Positions 2,704 to 29,856 of a DNA stretch of 31,102 nt are shown here, piece after piece. The stretch's first letter is position 1. Every line of letters starts with the position of its first letter. This DNA is from a virus. The notes below the pieces were generated by a model. The model made no database searches. It was not told the DNA's origin and saw nothing but the letters and a program-made list of their open reading frames with translations. The DNA lies in the IMG/VR virus record IMGVR_UViG_3300000553_000204, positions 1 through 31,102 of that record; one strand, written 5' to 3'. The translations under genes were made by a program, and so were the position numbers.

Positions 2704-3174
2704 ATGAAAAATTTAACACTACAAGAGAAATTAGAATTCTTTAAAGAAAAAGGATGGACATATGATGCGGAAACAGGTAACATATATTCTCATAAAAATG
2801 CATTAATTACAGGAAAACATACAACAGGTTATTTACAATGCAATGTATATTACTATAAAAAATTAATTAATGTTTATGCTCATCAACTTGCATATTATTT
2901 ATATACAGGTAAAGTACCAACTACTATTGATCATATTAATCAATGTATAACTGATAATAGGATATGTAATTTAAGAGAAGTAACTAAACAAGAAAATACC
3001 TTTAATAGTAAATCTAAAGGATATTCTTATGATAAACATGCCAAAAAATATAAAGCATATATAAAAATAAATAATAAACTTATTCATCTAGGATATTATG
3101 AATGCGAACAAGATGCTAGACAAGCTTATTTAAACGGGAAGAAAATACATCACGTTATAAAGTGTTCCAATTAA
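2704..3174 (+). CDS. HNH homing-type endonuclease with AP2-like C-terminal domain
   Basis: 156 residues. The N-terminus has a NUMOD-like 'YDAETGNIYSHK' segment. The centre has the HNH core: AHQLAYYLYTG, then TTIDHINQ (first His pair) and TDNRICNLREVTKQENTFN (Asn-rich part). The C-terminus (YKAYIKINNKLIHLGYYECEQDARQAY) is the AP2/ERF-like DNA-binding unit common in phage HNH homing enzymes. It cuts DNA and probably serves its own spread rather than virion building. It is the only plus-strand gene. It sits between two tail/neck genes and overlaps the 3' end of the convergent neck gene by 20 nt, which fits insertion as a selfish element. Family assignment is confident; homing activity is inferred. 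Confidence 0.9.
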   Translation: MKNLTLQEKLEFFKEKGWTYDAETGNIYSHKNALITGKHTTGYLQCNVYYYKKLINVYAHQLAYYLYTGKVPTTIDHINQCITDNRICNLREVTKQENTFNSKSKGYSYDKHAKKYKAYIKINNKLIHLGYYECEQDARQAYLNGKKIHHVIKCSN

Positions 3175-3664
3175 TATTATCAATATAATCTTGAATATCT
3201 TTTGCTACTGCTCCTTTAATTAATACAGTTAAGTTCTTTAATAACATTTTCTCTACCTTATCTTTTGCATATATCGGTTTAATACCTTTATATGCAATGG
3301 ATCGGGAAATTGCATACGCACTTGCTTCTGTATTTGTAGCAAATCCTTTTCTTCTAACCCATGTTTCAATCGGTTTATAAGGAACCCATTTTCCCATAGG
3401 TGGTTTAGTATAATCAGGTTTAAAATTCTTTCCTAGATAAGGATATCTACCTTGATCTACATAATCAAAATGTTTTGATGCAATTATTTCTAATGTTAAA
3501 CCATTTAATGTATCCACTACATCATAATCTAAACTATTAATTAATTCGGAAGTAGCTATTTTATTCTCTTGTTTTAATAAAGTTGATAATAATTTAACAG
3601 CTTGTCCACCTTGACTTAATAATAATTGTTCTAAATTCTTTTTATCTAATTTCTTGTTTGCCAT
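3155..3664 (-). CDS. Putative neck / tail completion protein, HK97 gp10-like (169 aa)
   Basis: The start is placed at ATG 3664 (MANKKLDKKNLEQLL), one base after the stop of the preceding gene. A longer in-frame version would overlap that gene by 25 codons and has no support. The middle and C-terminal parts (YVDQGRYPYLGKN, PIETWVRRKGF, SAYAISRSIAYKGIKPIY) follow the HK97 gp10-like pattern 'y..yvE.GR..g...P...i..Wi..kG......a....r.I...Gi.p'. Such proteins close the head-tail joint. It lies after the ATP-grasp gene, and its 3' end overlaps the convergent HNH gene by 20 nt. The call is from motif recognition only. Confidence 0.6.
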   Translation of the reverse strand: MANKKLDKKNLEQLLLSQGGQAVKLLSTLLKQENKIATSELINSLDYDVVDTLNGLTLEIIASKHFDYVDQGRYPYLGKNFKPDYTKPPMGKWVPYKPIETWVRRKGFATNTEASAYAISRSIAYKGIKPIYAKDKVEKMLLKNLTVLIKGAVAKDIQDYIDNINWNTL

Positions 3665-3665
3665 G

Positions 3666-4964
3666 TTAAAATATTGTATTAAATGTAGCCGAAATATCAT
3701 TAATGCTTTTTTTAGCACGAGATAAAGCATCTTTATCATAACTTAAACCATAACATTCTAATGATTCTGCTATCTCAATAGCTTTTTGTAATATAATATC
3801 TACTTGATCTCCTATAACAACTACCGAACCAAAAGCATCCATTTCCATTATACCTCCTTGTTCAAAAGGAACTATATAATCCAAATTATCTCTTCTAAAA
3901 GAACCTTTCAATTTAACATTATCCCTAAATTCATCTGCAATAGTTATAGGTAAATAATTTTTATAACAATATGATGATTTAATTATTAACTCACAGCCAT
4001 ATTTTGCCTTATAAATAGGTTCCACCAACATACCACGGCATCCATTAATTATAATATCGTCCCAATTACTAATCATTGCTAAATAAACTGCTGATGGTGG
4101 TGATCCAGCTCTCATACAAGGGTCAGTAAAATAATCTTTACCATCTACACCTACTCTAATCTCTGTACTAAAGAATCCAGTATGCCCATATTTAGTCAAT
4201 GCGGGCTCAAATTTCGTGTTTATTTCATTAATAGGTATAGGTGCTTCACTTCGTGTTTTATGGCAACCTACATAGCAAGAATCTTTAACTTCTATCCCAT
4301 AAATTATGTTGTCTGTGCTTTTACCATTAACACACCAACCATCAAATCCTACTTCTGCAATAACTTCTATTGAATCTTCAATAATAAACTCTAATTCCTC
4401 ACCCAAAGGACCCAATGTGACTATCAAATTCTCTATCCACATCATTGTTTGGTTCATATTTACATGATGAAAGGTTTCCATATTGCCGCGAAAATAAGAA
4501 ATTTTAATCCATTTATCTTCCTTATCTTTTAAATATTTCTTTAATTTCTTAACACCCATAATATATTTTGTAGGTGCTATTTCCATATTTTGATATCCTA
4601 ATTCATCTTTAAATAGATGTCTATTAGTTTCTAATTCTTCACTAGCACATCCACCCCATACTAATTTTCCCATTTTTCTTAATACATTACCCCAATCTTT
4701 AAAGTAAATATCAGGAAATACTATAATATCAAATGAATCTATATTAGACCAAAACTCATTTATCCTTTCAAATTCAGTATAACCAGAGCCGATTGAACTC
4801 ATACTAACCATAGGGAAAGGATTTTGATTAACAGAGTGATAATATACTTTACCAAAATGCTTTGATAACTCATAGGCAACATTTACATAACAACCTCCTA
4901 TGTTATCAACAACACATACGGTTAATTCTTTTGCCAATTTTACTAAATTATATTTAAGTTTCAT
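3666..4964 (-). CDS. ATP-grasp-like ligase inside the tail gene cluster (432 aa)
   Basis: The layout resembles ATP-grasp enzymes such as PurD. There is an N-terminal Rossmann-like part (ELTVCVVDNIGGCYVNVAYEL, FDIIVFPDIY, residues 13-90). Residues 102-125 (VWGGCASEELETNRHLFKDEL) look like the pre-grasp 'e.tdK..fk' segment. A central nucleotide-binding part has Lys154 (KWIKIS), EFIIEDSIE and EVGFDGWCVNG. The metal-binding end is STEIRVGVDGKDYFTDPCMRAGSPP (266-290), comparable to the 'E.N.R.G.P' signature. ATP-grasp enzymes join a carboxylate to an amine or thiol using ATP. The substrate is unknown; its place between lectin and neck genes suggests modification of a virion protein or small molecule late in infection. 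The fold call is by eye and several canonical residues are not certain. Confidence 0.6.
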   Translation of the reverse strand: MKLKYNLVKLAKELTVCVVDNIGGCYVNVAYELSKHFGKVYYHSVNQNPFPMVSMSSIGSGYTEFERINEFWSNIDSFDIIVFPDIYFKDWGNVLRKMGKLVWGGCASEELETNRHLFKDELGYQNMEIAPTKYIMGVKKLKKYLKDKEDKWIKISYFRGNMETFHHVNMNQTMMWIENLIVTLGPLGEELEFIIEDSIEVIAEVGFDGWCVNGKSTDNIIYGIEVKDSCYVGCHKTRSEAPIPINEINTKFEPALTKYGHTGFFSTEIRVGVDGKDYFTDPCMRAGSPPSAVYLAMISNWDDIIINGCRGMLVEPIYKAKYGCELIIKSSYCYKNYLPITIADEFRDNVKLKGSFRRDNLDYIVPFEQGGIMEMDAFGSVVVIGDQVDIILQKAIEIAESLECYGLSYDKDALSRAKKSINDISATFNTIF

Positions 4965-5196: not shown

Positions 5197-5931
5197 TTAA
5201 TATCCAAATCTTGTTTTATCTGCATTAAAGTTTTGTAAAACTTGTGTTGCTGTTAAATTAAATTGATATAATCTTGCTATACCTATACCACCATTTATAG
5301 AACTATATGGTGTTAAAATAACATTAGGACCATATCCACCCACTTCTCCGACTGGACTAGGATAACTACTTGAGCTATTACTAATTGTTAATGATCCACT
5401 AGCTACTAATACTCCATTTACATAGATGTAAGTTGTACTTGTTGAATCACCTGTCGCTACCAAATGATACCATTGTCCCGAATTTAACGGAGTACCTAAA
5501 CTGACTGCTACACTTTGTGCTGTACCATCCGAATACATAGTATATGAAGTACTAGTTGAAAAGATATAACCCCAATCAAATGTTGAACCATAAAGTCCCA
5601 TTGAAAATGGTATCGCATTTGAAAACGAATTTAACTTAACCCAAGTTTCCATTACGTATCCAGATGAACCACTCAAATTAAATATACTATTATAACCAAA
5701 TGTACCATACTGATTTATACCATTAAATTCTAATGATCCACCAGCATCAGTAGGATTAAAAGTCGGAGAACCAACCAATGTAACAGTTACTCCCGAACCA
5801 CTCAAATCTGTCCACACTGTCCCACTACCTGGATAACTTGACGTATTAGCACTATCAACATAAAAACTATAGCCAGATATAACTGGTATTGTTGAACTTA
5901 TTTTCTGTGGTATAAATATATGTCTCCTCAT
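5197..5931 (-). CDS. LamG / concanavalin A-like lectin protein, putative receptor-binding (244 aa)
   Basis: Nearly the whole protein is one jelly-roll LamG-like domain. It begins YSFYVDSANTSSYPGSGTVW-TDLSGSG and continues GGSLEFNGINQYGTFGY (about 67-83), ETWVKLNSFSN, GQWYHLVATGD (about 153-163), TYIYVNGVLVASGSL and IARLYQFNLTATQVLQNF. It ends with the family's typical RFGY. Such domains bind carbohydrate. It starts one base after the stop of the collagen-like gene and precedes two small or enzymatic genes, so it is probably a tip or side fibre acting with the collagen-like protein in host recognition. The domain call is strong; the virion location is inferred. Confidence 0.8.
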   Translation of the reverse strand: MRRHIFIPQKISSTIPVISGYSFYVDSANTSSYPGSGTVWTDLSGSGVTVTLVGSPTFNPTDAGGSLEFNGINQYGTFGYNSIFNLSGSSGYVMETWVKLNSFSNAIPFSMGLYGSTFDWGYIFSTSTSYTMYSDGTAQSVAVSLGTPLNSGQWYHLVATGDSTSTTYIYVNGVLVASGSLTISNSSSSYPSPVGEVGGYGPNVILTPYSSINGGIGIARLYQFNLTATQVLQNFNADKTRFGY

Positions 5932-5932
5932 A

Positions 5933-7825
5933 TTATAATCTTATTGTTCCTGATACTGTTTGTAAATTACCAAAATCACTCGTAGCTGTTCCTACTTGTA
6001 ATGTTAATTCATTCCCTTTATTTACCGTAAATGCACTTGTGGCTGTTCCAGTTGAAAGTGTTGTTGATACAGTCATATAAGTACCTATAACAAGTGATCC
6101 ATTTATATACAACCCTACGTTTGCCGTACCCGACATACATATACTGTTTAAACTTAATATAGTATATCCATATTGAGCAGTCAAATCTAATGTATAACTA
6201 TTCAATCCTATAACACTATTATTATCTTGAAAAGTTATTGCTTCCAATAATCCAGTATAACTATTAGCAGTAGGACCGGCAGGTCCTTGTGGGCCAACTG
6301 TTCCTTGATGACCTGTTGCTCCTTGTGGTCCAGTTACGCCTTGTACACCTTGCGGACCAGTAGGACCTTGTACACCCACTCCAGTCGCACCTTGAGATCC
6401 AGTTATACCTTGTGTTCCTTGAGGACCTTGAGGACCCACTAATCCAGATGAACCTGTAGGACCTTGATACCCCTGAAATCCTTGAGGACCTGTTATACCT
6501 TGTACACCTTGAAATCCCTGTGGCCCAGTAGGACCTTGCGAACCCTGAACTCCTATACCCGATGCTCCTGTTGCTCCCTGTGGACCAATAGACCCTTGTG
6601 CACCTTGTGGTCCAGTAGGACCTTGATACCCCTGTGTTCCTTGAAATCCCTGTGGACCTGTTGCTCCATTAATACCTGTATTTCCAGTAGGACCTTGATA
6701 CCCCTGTGTTCCTTGAAATCCCTGTGGACCTGTTGCTCCATTAATACCTGTATTTCCAGTAGGTCCTTGAAATCCTTGTGGTCCAGTAGGTCCAGTTGCC
6801 CCAACTATACCAGTTGATGGTCCTTGTGTTCCTTGAAATCCTTGTGGTCCAGTAGGGCCTTGAAATCCTTGTGGTCCAATTGAACCTTGTGAGCCAGTAG
6901 GGCCTTGAAATCCTTGTGAGCCAGTAGGACCTTGCGAACCCTGAACTCCTATACCCGATGCTCCTGTTGCTCCCTGTGGACCAATAGACCCTTGTGCACC
7001 TTGTGGTCCAGTCACACCTTGATAACCCTGTGTTCCTTGAAATCCCTGTGGACCTGTTACTCCATTAATACCCGTATTTCCAGTAGGTCCTTGAAATCCT
7101 TGTGGTCCAATTGAACCTTGTGAACCAGTAGGCCCCTGAAACCCAGCACCCTGTGGTCCAGTAGGACCTTGATACCCCTGTGGACCACCTGCAGGACCAG
7201 TAGGTCCCTGTGCACCAGTTGCCCCATTAATACCTATGTTACCATTTGTACCTTGAGGGCCAGTAGGTCCTTGATAACCTTGCGGTCCAATTAACCTCCA
7301 TGATACAGATTGTGTACCTAAACTTGTTGTAAAACTTAAAATAGGTGCCTGTGGTATGCTACATGGACCCAATGTGTTTGCTTGACGAAAAGTTAATGTA
7401 GCCGCCCAACCATTTGTATTATCATCCTCTACTTCAAATACAGGTTGCCATACCGTATCACCCACTGTATTCAACCCCAACGCAGTATATAACGGATGCC
7501 TATCAATCATTACAATAAAATCCCTTAAAATACTCTCACAATCCGATAAAATCTCATTAAAATTAGGATCTCCCTTAATAATCTTATCTAAAACAAATAT
7601 ATCATAAGTATTTTCAAATACTTGAATACGACTTTGACCAGGATTTGATGCCCTAACCGCCTTCCCAACGGCAGGTTGTACCCAAACTAATGGATATTTA
7701 CGAGTTGTAGAAGCATTTATATTATATGTAGGTCCGAAACCAAAATCATTAACCATTAAATTACCCATTGCTAATGAATAAAATAAATCTATGATACTAT
7801 TTAAAGATTGTGTATTATTTGCCAT
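5933..7825 (-). CDS. Tail-terminator-like domain fused to a collagen-like fibre (630 aa)
   Basis: Three parts are visible. Residues 1-165 resemble the Bacteroidota-phage tail terminator/neck protein pattern: IIDLFYSLA, FGFGPTYNIN, KYPLVWVQP, FVLDKI, FNEILSDCESILRDFIV, and GWAATLTFR...C-IP. Residues 180-519 are about 113 Gly-X-Y triplets, mostly GPQ, GFQ, GPT and GYQ, with a few breaks such as GPAGGPQ and GPSTGIVG. Residues 520-630 form a C-terminal beta domain (YINGSLVIGTY, GNELTLQVGTA) that could act as a trimerisation or binding head. About 59 Gln lie in the collagen part. The gene follows a promoter motif at 7833-7869 and terL. The collagen call is certain; the terminator-like N-terminus is my reading of the motifs. 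Confidence 0.8.
   Translation of the reverse strand: MANNTQSLNSIIDLFYSLAMGNLMVNDFGFGPTYNINASTTRKYPLVWVQPAVGKAVRASNPGQSRIQVFENTYDIFVLDKIIKGDPNFNEILSDCESILRDFIVMIDRHPLYTALGLNTVGDTVWQPVFEVEDDNTNGWAATLTFRQANTLGPCSIPQAPILSFTTSLGTQSVSWRLIGPQGYQGPTGPQGTNGNIGINGATGAQGPTGPAGGPQGYQGPTGPQGAGFQGPTGSQGSIGPQGFQGPTGNTGINGVTGPQGFQGTQGYQGVTGPQGAQGSIGPQGATGASGIGVQGSQGPTGSQGFQGPTGSQGSIGPQGFQGPTGPQGFQGTQGPSTGIVGATGPTGPQGFQGPTGNTGINGATGPQGFQGTQGYQGPTGNTGINGATGPQGFQGTQGYQGPTGPQGAQGSIGPQGATGASGIGVQGSQGPTGPQGFQGVQGITGPQGFQGYQGPTGSSGLVGPQGPQGTQGITGSQGATGVGVQGPTGPQGVQGVTGPQGATGHQGTVGPQGPAGPTANSYTGLLEAITFQDNNSVIGLNSYTLDLTAQYGYTILSLNSICMSGTANVGLYINGSLVIGTYMTVSTTLSTGTATSAFTVNKGNELTLQVGTATSDFGNLQTVSGTIRL
6269..7288 (-). 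repeat. Collagen-like Gly-X-Y coding repeat
   Basis: This stretch encodes roughly 340 residues of Gly-X-Y. On the plus strand it shows as repeated ccttgtggtcca and ccctgtggacca blocks. Gln in the Y position is encoded by both CAA and CAG. A block of about 75 bp starting at 6541 recurs exactly near 6934, and similarity continues beyond it. Confidence 0.95.
6612..6755 (-). repeat. 72-bp in-frame tandem repeat inside the collagen region
   Basis: Two adjacent copies (6612-6683 and 6684-6755) are identical by eye. The unit is 72 bp, that is 24 residues or 8 Gly-X-Y triplets, so gain or loss changes fibre length without breaking the frame or the triplet register. Confidence 0.9.
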
Positions 7826-14671: not shown

Positions 14672-15073
14672 TTATTTATATTTTTGTAATATACTATATA
14701 TTTGTTCCGTTACATAGCCAAACATATAAGCAAATGCTTCGTGATTACTTTGTGTGTATTTAACGCCTTTATCCATCAAAATATGTGTTATAGCATGATG
14801 TATTTCGTGTTGTAATATACCTAAATCGTGTATTGTATTAGGTACATTTTTCATCCTTATTATATAAGTATCTTCAAGATGAACGCAATATCCTGATGCG
14901 GTATCATAATCATCAAGTTTATTTTTATATTCATCTTTAAAGTGTGTTTTAAACTCTTCAAAAGTTTCTCCAAAGGAAAAGAATATAGTACAATACCAAC
15001 ACTCTACTGTTATTTTACAAAAATGCGGTTTATCAAAATCCGATTTTCTTAATAGTTTTTTAAATATATTCAT
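14672..15073 (-). CDS. Putative zinc metallopeptidase, HEIHH type (133 aa)
   Basis: Residues 89-93 are HEIHH, the HExxH zincin motif, with a third candidate ligand in the downstream NHEAFAYMFGYVTEQI (Glu112). This is the compact architecture of small phage and ImmA-related zincins. I chose ATG 15073 (MNIFKKLLRK), coupled to the preceding stop as ATGA, rather than the in-frame ATG 15100, which lies inside that gene. It is in the early block, so it may cleave a host protein rather than serve in virion maturation. The zinc site is clear; catalytic activity and target are not known. Confidence 0.75.
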   Translation of the reverse strand: MNIFKKLLRKSDFDKPHFCKITVECWYCTIFFSFGETFEEFKTHFKDEYKNKLDDYDTASGYCVHLEDTYIIRMKNVPNTIHDLGILQHEIHHAITHILMDKGVKYTQSNHEAFAYMFGYVTEQIYSILQKYK

Positions 15074-15213
15074 TTCAATAATGATTTTTCTTCTCTCCAA
15101 ATATGTCGTAATAGTTCTATTACTTCTTCATAGAAGTTTACTGGTATATCACCAAATTGTACTTTATCATCTACTAGTTTCTTTACTATTTTAATTGCTT
15201 CTAGGTTCTTCAT
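15070..15213 (-). CDS. Small helical protein (47 aa)
   Basis: MKNLEAIKIVKKLVDDKVQF begins a frame of 47 residues ending EVIELLRHIWREEKSLLK. It is highly charged and amphipathic throughout, with no membrane segment or Cys. It ends as ATGA with the start of the zincin gene, so the two are translationally coupled. That coupling is the main reason to accept a gene this short. It may be a partner or inhibitor of the zincin. Confidence 0.55.
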   Translation of the reverse strand: MKNLEAIKIVKKLVDDKVQFGDIPVNFYEEVIELLRHIWREEKSLLK

Positions 15214-16756: not shown

Positions 16757-17968
16757 TTAATATAAATTATTATCCACTTCTTTCCAGTATCTTTTAATAG
16801 TTCTTAAACCTAGACCTGTATTTTCGGCTATTATCTTCTGTGTATATTCATATTGATTTAGGTCTAATAACCTTTTTATTTCTGTTTTAATCTTATTAAT
16901 AGTATTTTGTTTTCTTAATTTTCCGTTTTCTTTTGCTGCTATACTCATTTTTTGTGTGGGTGTTAATTTTATTTCTTCATAATTTTTATTAAAGTGTATT
17001 CTTTTTATTCTAGTTTTCAATTTAGGTCCTTCTTTCTTTATTTTTTTAAACATATTATATACAAATTTCTTTAAATAATTATATTCAAATTTATTTTCTG
17101 CTATGTTATTTATATACCAAATATAACTGGTGGTTTGTTGTAGGTCTATAGTAGGATTTAACCATATTAATGCAGATATTATTCTTGTATATGTAGTATG
17201 TTTTGTCCCATCTTTTATAAATCGTGGGTAAGATATTCTATACCATTCTATGGGGTCTATAGTATATAATCCTTCAATTTCCTTTGTATATTGTGTTTCA
17301 AATACAATTTGAGTAAGTAAATCTTTAAATGAAATAATATAAGAAGGTGCCATATAAGCTAATTCCTTCCTTTCTACTTTAATTAGCTCATGTGGCACCC
17401 TGTAATTATTTGTTTGTGTATTTTCCCAACCTATCTCCTCTACATTAAATGTGTTATCAGGTATGTATATAACGTTAGGATCGTAACTAACAAATGCTTT
17501 TCTAGCAATGCCTTTTGCTCCATTATCAACATTAAATCCTTGGTCATTTAAGTAATCTTTAATAAGATTTTGTTTAGCACTATAATTATATGGTGTAAGG
17601 TCATTAACTTTTACGAAAAAATGTAATCCACTTCCGCCTGCACTTTTATAGATTAATGTAATGGGGATCGTATCATTGAGTTCCATTATGGTGCCATTTA
17701 AGTCAAAGTCGGTGCCACCATCTATATCAAAAAAAATAAGACCATTAAGTTCTTGTAATGTATCTTCTTTTAATCCATTAAATTTACCTGATGTAATAAT
17801 ACAAGGTAATAGTTCTTTAACTCTTTTGTATTCTTTTGATTTATATTCCAAAGAACGAAGGTATTCTATTTTATTTTGTAATGGATTTTCTTTAATTAGA
17901 TCAACTAATTCTTCTATAGATAAATTTATAGGTGTGTGAGTTTTTATATTCTCTAGGTAAGTAAACAT
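16757..17968 (-). CDS. BT4734-like (VirE N-terminal type) PrimPol with C-terminal HTH (403 aa)
   Basis: Residues about 50-170 carry the BT4734/VirE-N pattern of the archaeo-eukaryotic primase fold: LLPCIITSGKFNG, GLIFFDIDG (catalytic-type acidic pair Asp81/Asp83), SAGGSGLHFFVKV (111-121), RKAFVSYDP (156-164). The middle part is helical. The C-terminal end (YEYTQKIIAENTGLGLRTIKRYW) is an HTH. Such proteins probably prime or start replication, and the HTH could recognise the origin. It follows a long structured non-coding leader with two hairpins, a plausible origin region. No separate helicase or polymerase is seen, so host replication enzymes are likely used. Fold assignment is strong; the exact reaction is inferred. 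Confidence 0.75.
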   Translation of the reverse strand: MFTYLENIKTHTPINLSIEELVDLIKENPLQNKIEYLRSLEYKSKEYKRVKELLPCIITSGKFNGLKEDTLQELNGLIFFDIDGGTDFDLNGTIMELNDTIPITLIYKSAGGSGLHFFVKVNDLTPYNYSAKQNLIKDYLNDQGFNVDNGAKGIARKAFVSYDPNVIYIPDNTFNVEEIGWENTQTNNYRVPHELIKVERKELAYMAPSYIISFKDLLTQIVFETQYTKEIEGLYTIDPIEWYRISYPRFIKDGTKHTTYTRIISALIWLNPTIDLQQTTSYIWYINNIAENKFEYNYLKKFVYNMFKKIKKEGPKLKTRIKRIHFNKNYEEIKLTPTQKMSIAAKENGKLRKQNTINKIKTEIKRLLDLNQYEYTQKIIAENTGLGLRTIKRYWKEVDNNLY

Positions 17969-18753: not shown

Positions 18754-19143
18754 TTATATAATCAAATTTTTTTCATAAGTGGCCCAATCAATTCCTAATT
18801 GTATGGCCAATTGTCTTTCATAATTCTCTGCAATACGGTGTTCTATAGAATAACAACATCCAGGTTCATTTCCAGGTTCGTCTGCTGTCGTTAATCCTAG
18901 TTGTTCTAATCTATTCCATTCAATATCATATTTAAGTATTTCTGCTTCTGTTAAGCCCCTTTTTTCAGTCAACATATATTCTATCATTTCGTGTAAAAGA
19001 ATAGTAAGGTGATAATCCAAATTGCGTTGTTTTGTTATTCTAATCTCTACACTATTATCTGTTTCCCAATAGTCCCCACATGTGGGATATCGTTGATATT
19101 TACTATCAATAAATTTTATATTTATATCTTTATCTCCTCTCAT
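18754..19143 (-). CDS. Putative metal-binding protein with a degenerate zincin motif, HEMIE (129 aa)
   Basis: Residues about 51-55 are HEMIE (LLHEMIEYMLTEKRG), where the second His of HExxH is replaced by Glu. A second conserved-looking block is EHRIAENYERQLAIQLGIDWATYE at the C-terminus. I associate the pair (HExxE plus H..AEN.E..LA..LG.dW..Y) with a family of small phage proteins of unknown function; the combined His/Glu set could bind a metal. It lies in the late operon between the connector gene and the holin-like gene, so a role in virion maturation or lysis is possible. Catalytic activity is doubtful given the changed motif. Confidence 0.6.
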   Translation of the reverse strand: MRGDKDINIKFIDSKYQRYPTCGDYWETDNSVEIRITKQRNLDYHLTILLHEMIEYMLTEKRGLTEAEILKYDIEWNRLEQLGLTTADEPGNEPGCCYSIEHRIAENYERQLAIQLGIDWATYEKNLII

Positions 19144-28761: not shown

Positions 28762-29856
28762 TTACAAAACTACAAAAGGTGTGTAATTTATTTCTACATT
28801 TTGATCTATGTAGATAACTTGTAATCCTGAACCCATAGAAGATCTATTTTGTATTGTAGTAGAAGAAGATATACCTGATACTTGTTCTACTACAAAATTT
28901 GATGCCTCTAAACCAGTATCATTTGTATTAAATGATTTAACAGTTTCAGCACTTACAAAAATAATACCAGAGTTTGTACCACATATAACACCCCAACATG
29001 ATTCTAATGTTACAAATTGAGTAGTAACACCGGGATTCAATACATAACAATTTGCTTGAATATCTATGTTATATACACCAGCTCCGTTAGTATAAGGTTG
29101 ACTAAATGTACCTAGATCCAATAACCATCTTGTTATAGATGATGCACTAGCACCTGTGTTAGTAGCAGTAAATTTTAAATTTGAATGTAATAAAGTGTTA
29201 TTACAAAATGTTTGTGTGTATTCGTATTGACTAGCTGTTCCATTTTCAGCAGTAATAGTTAAAGTAGGAATGATGCTAGATAATGTAGTATAATCCACAA
29301 ATCCTGATGTAGTATAAGTAGAGTATGTTGTACTACCTACTGCAAAATATTTTTCTTTATAATTAACTAAACTTAAATCATGACTAGTACTTACAGTAGA
29401 TGTGACCGCATAGCTGCTAGGTGCATTAATAATAAAATGATTAGACGAACTAACAGATGCTCCTGTTCCGTGTGCAAAAACATTATTTGCCGCTATACTA
29501 TGCCCATCACCAATTGCTACAATATTATTTCCTTGTAAAATATGTGATGTGCCTATAGCTACATTTTCATTACCCGATACATTATGAGAATTTCCACCTA
29601 CGATATGATTAAATCCCATTACAGTATTATCATAACCACTTATAGAGTGGTTATCTCCTTGTATAATGTGTCCTGTTCCATTAACATTATTATATCTTCC
29701 ATTAATTGATAAATTGTATCCTGCTGCTATATTTCCTTTCCCATAAAAATTATTTGTAGATGATAAACTTAAATTACCAACTATTGATTTATAATTAATT
29801 ATTTTACTTAATACAGGTGTTCCTCCTTTTGATGGTATGTAATCTTGTGTAGTCAT
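28762..29856 (-). CDS. YadA-like tail fibre / adhesin (364 aa)
   Basis: Residues about 35-150 are short repeats such as NGTGHIIQGDNHSISGYDN, MGFNHIVGGNSHNVSGNEN, AIGTSHILQGNNIVAIGDG and HSIAANNVFAHGTGASVSSSN. The period is about 14, with Gly, Asn/His and Ile at fixed places. This is the pattern of the YadA left-handed trimeric beta-roll. The rest is a beta-rich C-terminal domain (NLKFTATNTGASASSITRWLLDLGTF, QFVTLESCWGVICGTNSGIIFVSAETV) ending in VEINYTPFVVL. It would form a trimeric spike or fibre at the tail tip. Its ATG overlaps the stop of the junction tail gene (TAATG), so translation is coupled. Confidence 0.8.
   Translation of the reverse strand: MTTQDYIPSKGGTPVLSKIINYKSIVGNLSLSSTNNFYGKGNIAAGYNLSINGRYNNVNGTGHIIQGDNHSISGYDNTVMGFNHIVGGNSHNVSGNENVAIGTSHILQGNNIVAIGDGHSIAANNVFAHGTGASVSSSNHFIINAPSSYAVTSTVSTSHDLSLVNYKEKYFAVGSTTYSTYTTSGFVDYTTLSSIIPTLTITAENGTASQYEYTQTFCNNTLLHSNLKFTATNTGASASSITRWLLDLGTFSQPYTNGAGVYNIDIQANCYVLNPGVTTQFVTLESCWGVICGTNSGIIFVSAETVKSFNTNDTGLEASNFVVEQVSGISSSTTIQNRSSMGSGLQVIYIDQNVEINYTPFVVL

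Follow-up and report, generated by a model that had tools for sequence, protein, structure and literature searches.

ATP-grasp proteins have been found together with other enzymes in both phages and bacteria. In LUZ24-like and phiEco32-like phages, an ATP-grasp protein of ~290 aa is encoded in the early region with COOH-NH2 ligase and GATase partners (PMC3890496). In bacteria, operons combining SpeD and a glutathionylspermidine-synthetase-type ATP-grasp with PspA bring homologs of AdoMet decarboxylase together with an ATP-grasp peptide ligase (PMC11237479). Phage homologs of SpeD can act as Orn/Arg decarboxylases (PMC9992855), and ATP-grasp proteins are mentioned neither in that work nor in PMC10407285.

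The window analyzed here, a stretch of 31,102 nucleotides from a virus (IMG/VR record IMGVR_UViG_3300000553_000204), carries a gene for which the original prediction proposed an ATP-grasp-like enzyme lying among neck, lectin, and tail genes. The relevant features are as follows.

3155..3739, minus strand: downstream co-operonic gene, HK97-gp10-like by eye, conserved in the window's clade
3666..4964, minus strand: gene for the PurD-fold ATP-grasp ligase, 432 aa
4974..5225, minus strand: small upstream ORF, 83 aa, function unassigned, ending 9 nt ahead of the ATP-grasp start
5197..5931, minus strand: lectin-like (Laminin_G_3, PF13385) protein of the same operon, genomic context and not a conserved partner
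5933..7825, minus strand: collagen-like (PF01391) tail fiber of the same operon, genomic context
18754..19143, minus strand: HExxE partner protein, 129 aa, in the window located by the portal/connector genes and away from the ATP-grasp gene

The ORF at 3666-4964 is present as predicted and contains every motif quoted for it. It lies on the minus strand, with its ATG at 4964 and the end of its stop codon at 3666, and the plus strand across this interval has stop codons throughout. It belongs to a minus-strand run encoding the large terminase, the collagen-like fiber, the lectin-like protein, the ATP-grasp protein, and the HK97-gp10-like protein. Domain matches back the terminase, fiber, and lectin-like assignments; the "neck" label is a by-eye reading of the HK97-gp10-like sequence, since the 194-aa downstream ORF had no match in Pfam or PHROG. 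The likely true start of that ORF is Met26 of the listed frame (~3664), 1 nt past the ATP-grasp stop codon, and the HK97-gp10-like gene is conserved beside the ATP-grasp gene in the window's own clade. An antisense ORF cluster in the neighborhood table (c17) was discarded as an ORF-calling artifact. Other observations in the window were a probable homing endonuclease on the opposite strand within the late operon (2704-3174, plus; HNH_3 with a weak AP2 match), a distinct HExxH-containing protein (14672-15100, minus; phrog_1365), a BT4734-like N-terminal (VirE-N-like) protein that is compatible with a Bacteroidota host (16757-17968, minus), and an ice-binding beta-roll-like match slightly below the cutoff, perhaps a fiber (28762-29856, minus; PF21300).

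Neither the window protein nor its close homologs gave more than chance-level matches in sequence searches of Pfam, PHROG, NCBIfam, and PDB. Structure and profile comparisons, in turn, upheld both the proposed ATP-grasp fold, in which two alpha+beta domains grip ATP, and the naming of PurD as the closest metabolic analog. An AlphaFold2 model built from a 20-sequence alignment was confident (pLDDT 88.8, pTM 0.89), and Foldseek matched it to hundreds of ATP-grasp structures in the PDB; ranks 1 to 15 were all PurD/GAR synthetase over the whole chain (E 1.1e-21 to 1.6e-18, TM 0.64 to 0.76), followed by biotin carboxylase, PurK, pyruvate carboxylase, and amino-acid ligases. A search of BFVD with the same model gave just short generic viral ATP-grasps as weak and partial matches. 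Profile-profile comparison with PurD by hhalign extended over 368 columns (E 5.4e-6). A bridging group of proteins, subfamily II, was found as some of the neighbors of HExxE genes and is marked by the motifs EFTxRxGWPAF and FEHKK...GPNTGE. Its members score 17.8 to 54 bits against the window-family HMM and match Pfam GARS_A at up to 61 bits (cutoff, 27) and GARS_C at up to 47 bits (cutoff, 34.8), and E. coli PurD reaches 135 bits against the subfamily II HMM. The fold, the hhalign result, and the GARS_A and GARS_C matches agree on the N, A, B, and C domain architecture of PurD, and the chain from the window family through subfamily II to PurD supports descent from PurD. Subfamily II comprises L089, L105, L113-L146, and L174 (MW202796.1); its genes adjoin one for an HExxE protein except in L174, a Manatee Spring phage record in which the subfamily II gene was left unannotated and no HExxE gene was seen in the stretch read.

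Assignment of the gene as PurD itself was rejected on the defining residues. The metal-binding Asn is replaced by Cys, Thr, or Ala, the RFGDPE signature is absent from the window protein, which has R-A-G-S-P-P instead, and the N-terminal GxGGREHA motif is also absent, the window protein having VDNIGGCYVNVA. No match to the NCBIfam purD model TIGR00877 at its cutoff was found in the window, and GARS_N matched neither the window-type subfamily nor subfamily II, in agreement with the expectation that a PurD N-terminal signature would be lacking.

Residues E112, R115, K154, R159, E163, E204, D208, E225, K227, E268, R270, D281, R285, and N300 are invariant in all 76 aligned members of the family, and E196 is present in 67 of them. 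The ATP-binding Lys (K154, 76/76) and adenine/ribose-binding Glu (E204, 76/76; E196, 67/76) are thus conserved. The conserved Lys, Glu, and Asn/Asp ligands expected of an ATP-grasp were recovered in part: K154, E196, E204, E268, and D281 are in place, the last two being invariant at metal-ligand positions, and the Asn position (residue 283) is Cys in 71, Thr in 28, Ala in 3, and Asn in none of the members with a readable motif. Loss of this metal-binding Asn could mean altered chemistry. Contacts between PurD and its ligands were taken from PMC8880213, with the A. aeolicus numbering converted by us. By alignment, E. coli PurD E102, K145, E187, and R290 correspond to E112, K154, E196, and R285 of the window protein; E112, R115, K154, and E196 are counterparts of the PurD ATP/Mg residues and R285 is the counterpart of the glycine-binding Arg. 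Changed relative to PurD are K105 (R115), the metal ligands Glu286 (D281) and Asn288 (C283), and the glycine-binding Glu295 (P290), a position that is Pro or another residue across the family. E225 and K227 probably correspond to D214 and K216 of E. coli PurD by way of the subfamily II motif FEHKK...GPNTGE, a mapping that is not structural, the automatic alignment placing the two pairs out of register. From these comparisons of sequence, we infer an active site composed of K154, E196, E204, E225, K227, E268, D281, C283, and R285. Judged by the residue mapping, the enzyme plausibly works through an acyl-phosphate and has a donor pocket suited to an amino-acid-like substrate; conservation does not extend to the PRA side. 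In one member (L080:4362-6671), a LAGLIDADG intein lies exactly ahead of the active-site C283 (MIDF|CFDNETEVLT...PFWACN|CARAPSPP).

Successive pattern scans of IMG/VR yielded 6, then 24, and then 81 confirmed relatives with 29 to 100% identity, and further relatives surfaced beside the partner genes described below, giving more than 100 homologs, nearly all on uncultured viral contigs. The reading frame is kept at 31 to 70% identity across these >100 viral loci. Searches by tblastn found no member in INPHARED phages (three family members as queries) or in PLSDB plasmids (one query). Among 85,000 prokaryote genomes, a first scan found none and a second found four small MAG contigs, which are phage-like by their neighboring genes (as judged by eye) and of which two have the HExxE partner adjacent. 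These scans indicate that the family is nearly virus exclusive and is missing from the isolate-dominated phage collection. Estimates of dN/dS (~0.03 to 0.26) show purifying selection, which together with the frame being kept in >100 viral loci argues for a real gene under constraint; given also the invariant ATP-site residues, the window enzyme is very likely active. Two phage contigs carry the ATP-grasp and HExxE pair twice, as paralogs (L041/L053 on 3300021079_000006 and L042/L052 on 3300020229_000001).

What is new here is the pair of small partner genes, one encoding an HExxE protein and the other a SpeD-like protein. Of 82 ATP-grasp loci, 40 have the HExxE gene within 1 kb in the same orientation, and a scan with the HExxE protein found an ATP-grasp gene in 50 of 78 loci, adjacent in 49, frequencies that are biased because about a dozen contigs are common to both sets and the scan pattern was derived from ATP-grasp-linked members. 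The order of the two genes is one way in 30 cases and the other way in 19; in the window and four close relatives, the HExxE gene is elsewhere in the genome. No HExxE protein was found by tblastn in INPHARED phages or plasmids. Residues H51, E55, D73, H102, and E109 are invariant among 74 aligned sequences, so that an HExxE...H pattern is present, and the model is confident (pLDDT 94.6). The best Foldseek match is a weak one, to the SprT-like protease 6mdw (E 0.13, probability 0.77), and is suggestive of a zincin-like protein. In longer versions (L037:5399-6115 and similar), a sulfhydryl oxidase domain of the Erv1/Alr-like type (PF04777, E 2e-6) is fused C-terminally to the HExxE domain.

In other lineages, the neighbor of the ATP-grasp gene is SpeD/AdoMetDC-like, with PF02675 scores of up to 36.3 bits (L031; cutoff, 25). 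The reverse scan gave 34 SpeD-like loci, 31 with an adjacent ATP-grasp gene; two of the exceptions are at contig ends. The pyruvoyl Ser and catalytic Cys are present in 36/36 sequences at the canonical AdoMetDC spacing of 20, while 35/36 have Asp at the position of the processing His, five residues past the Ser, which leaves decarboxylase activity of the SpeD-like protein itself uncertain. The roles of these Ser, Cys, and His residues are presumably those in class 1b AdoMetDC. Neither the window nor most HExxE-linked genomes contain the SpeD-like gene, and an amine acceptor derived from SpeD is therefore not universal. On a tree of 105 ATP-grasp proteins, the well-supported branches force at least seven changes in HExxE linkage and no fewer than three in SpeD linkage, indicating that the associations were gained or lost repeatedly and do not reflect a single frozen event.

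The module lies near portal, terminase, major capsid, or tail genes, and the nearby portals are of four unrelated kinds (phrog_156, phrog_6547, HK97-type, and P22-type), the L206 and L207 cases being SpeD-like loci in which the ATP-grasp gene itself was not seen. One clade within L037-L081 has a replication-like neighborhood (by eye) and not a head operon. The genomic position of the module thus points to late expression in most lineages without singling out a protein as target. The fiber, lectin, and gp10-like neighborhood is peculiar to the window's clade, and the original suggestion, that a small group is joined to a fiber or neck protein, was not borne out as a general rule because the neighboring genes change between lineages; the conserved partners are the HExxE and SpeD-like genes. 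These partners point toward chemistry on small amines no less than toward modification of a protein, and we favor the other half of that proposal, the synthesis of an unknown compound late in infection. In five loci (L016, L019, L021, L025, and L069), a 45-aa Lys-rich ORF (SQNCFxRNV...KAKGK) lies directly upstream of the ATP-grasp gene; its product is possibly a peptide substrate or merely a common small phage protein.

We see an even chance that the enzyme is a PurD-derived carboxylate-amine ligase with a changed acceptor, for which a small aminoacyl-amine made late in infection is the predicted product. ATP would phosphorylate a small, probably amino-acid-like carboxylate gripped by Glu225 and Arg285, and an amine other than phosphoribosylamine would then attack the acyl-phosphate. 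Where the SpeD-like partner is present, the acceptor amine would most simply be the product of its pyruvoyl-type decarboxylation, and the HExxE protein, acting as a zinc hydrolase, might trim the substrate or supply the amine. Our committed guess would be a polyamine-like aminoacyl-amine used for head filling or assembly. More tentatively, diverse uncultured phages may have a late module in common: a PurD-derived ATP-grasp ligase would act together with an HExxE metalloprotein, a SpeD-like pyruvoyl decarboxylase, or both to make a noncanonical aminoacyl-amine (or an amine-modified virion protein) required for virion production, a pathway undescribed in phages or cells.

The closest rival is amidation of a virion protein, with the ligase attaching an amino acid or another small group to a late protein (portal, capsid, connector, fiber, or neck) and the HExxE protein acting as a protease, either to uncover the acceptor or to take the group off again. 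Portal, terminase, and capsid genes adjoining the module in several unrelated lineages, the fiber and gp10-like genes flanking the window copy, and the zincin-like partner would all fit, and other phage ATP-grasp families are predicted to modify proteins (PMC7824862). However, the ancestral enzyme acts on small molecules, no virion protein family is a constant neighbor, and the SpeD-like partner better suits a small amine, so that this joint scheme seems to us unlikely. PurD ancestry would also suit a nucleotide-like acceptor, as in hypermodification of nucleobases or nucleotides, and PMC10580990, citing Iyer 2009, describes phage amidoligase/GATase pairs proposed for wall modification; a ligase that modifies DNA, or the host wall or a host protein for phage protection or a superinfection block, is nonetheless a decidedly poor prospect, as neither DNA-modification nor wall genes were found as constant neighbors and the gene's position is mostly late.

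If the gene encoded a true phage GAR synthetase serving to raise purine synthesis, the nearest fold and ancestry would be accounted for, and a viral "phosphoribosylamine-glycine ligase" that is virus enriched in the ocean has been read in this way (PMC11360552). Judged by its residues, such an auxiliary PurD appears very improbable here: GxGGREHA, RFGDPE, and a TIGR00877 match are lacking, the metal Asn is replaced in all readable members and the glycine-binding Glu by Pro or another residue, and other purine genes were not seen alongside. Equally hard to credit is a catalytically dead ATP-grasp kept as a structural or binding protein. The lost metal Asn would be expected of one, but ~15 charged residues are invariant among sequences at ~30% identity, and the intein of one member sits exactly at the active-site loop. 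Inteins usually occupy catalytic motifs.

A familiar purine enzyme has apparently been co-opted by phages for another bond-forming job and seems to travel in unrelated phage lineages in the company of two small partner proteins. The partner linkage makes the question testable with two or three proteins and one predicted product. Since standard annotation is blind to the window-type family and would label the bridging family PurD, this module may account for part of the viral "purine auxiliary genes." Some of the virus-enriched ocean genes of PMC11360552 could belong to the PurD-derived ATP-grasp family.

Compared with known systems, the window family shares with PurD/GAR synthetase (PF02844, PF01071, PF02843; TIGR00877) its full-length fold and ATP-site Lys and Glu; unlike PurD, it is virus restricted and linked to HExxE or SpeD-like genes. 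The amidoligase/ATP-grasp/glutamine amidotransferase cassettes of LUZ24-like and phiEco32-like phages likewise encode phage ATP-dependent amide-bond enzymes with no assigned product (Iyer 2009), but their COOH-NH2 ligase and GATase partners are absent from the window module. The R2K (CDC123-related) ATP-grasps of jumbo phages and giant viruses are also viral and have predicted protein targets; they consist of a short R2K-type domain, and the BFVD matches of the window model were weak and partial. In the bacterial SpeD/PspA operons, the ligase is GspS-like and the context is membrane/PspA, whereas the window family is PurD-like and lies among phage late genes. The phage class 1b SpeD Orn/Arg decarboxylases (PMC9992855, PMC10407285) belong to the same Pfam family as the SpeD-like partner and are likewise phage encoded and of similar size; the partner differs in having Asp in place of the processing His and in being tied to an ATP-grasp gene.
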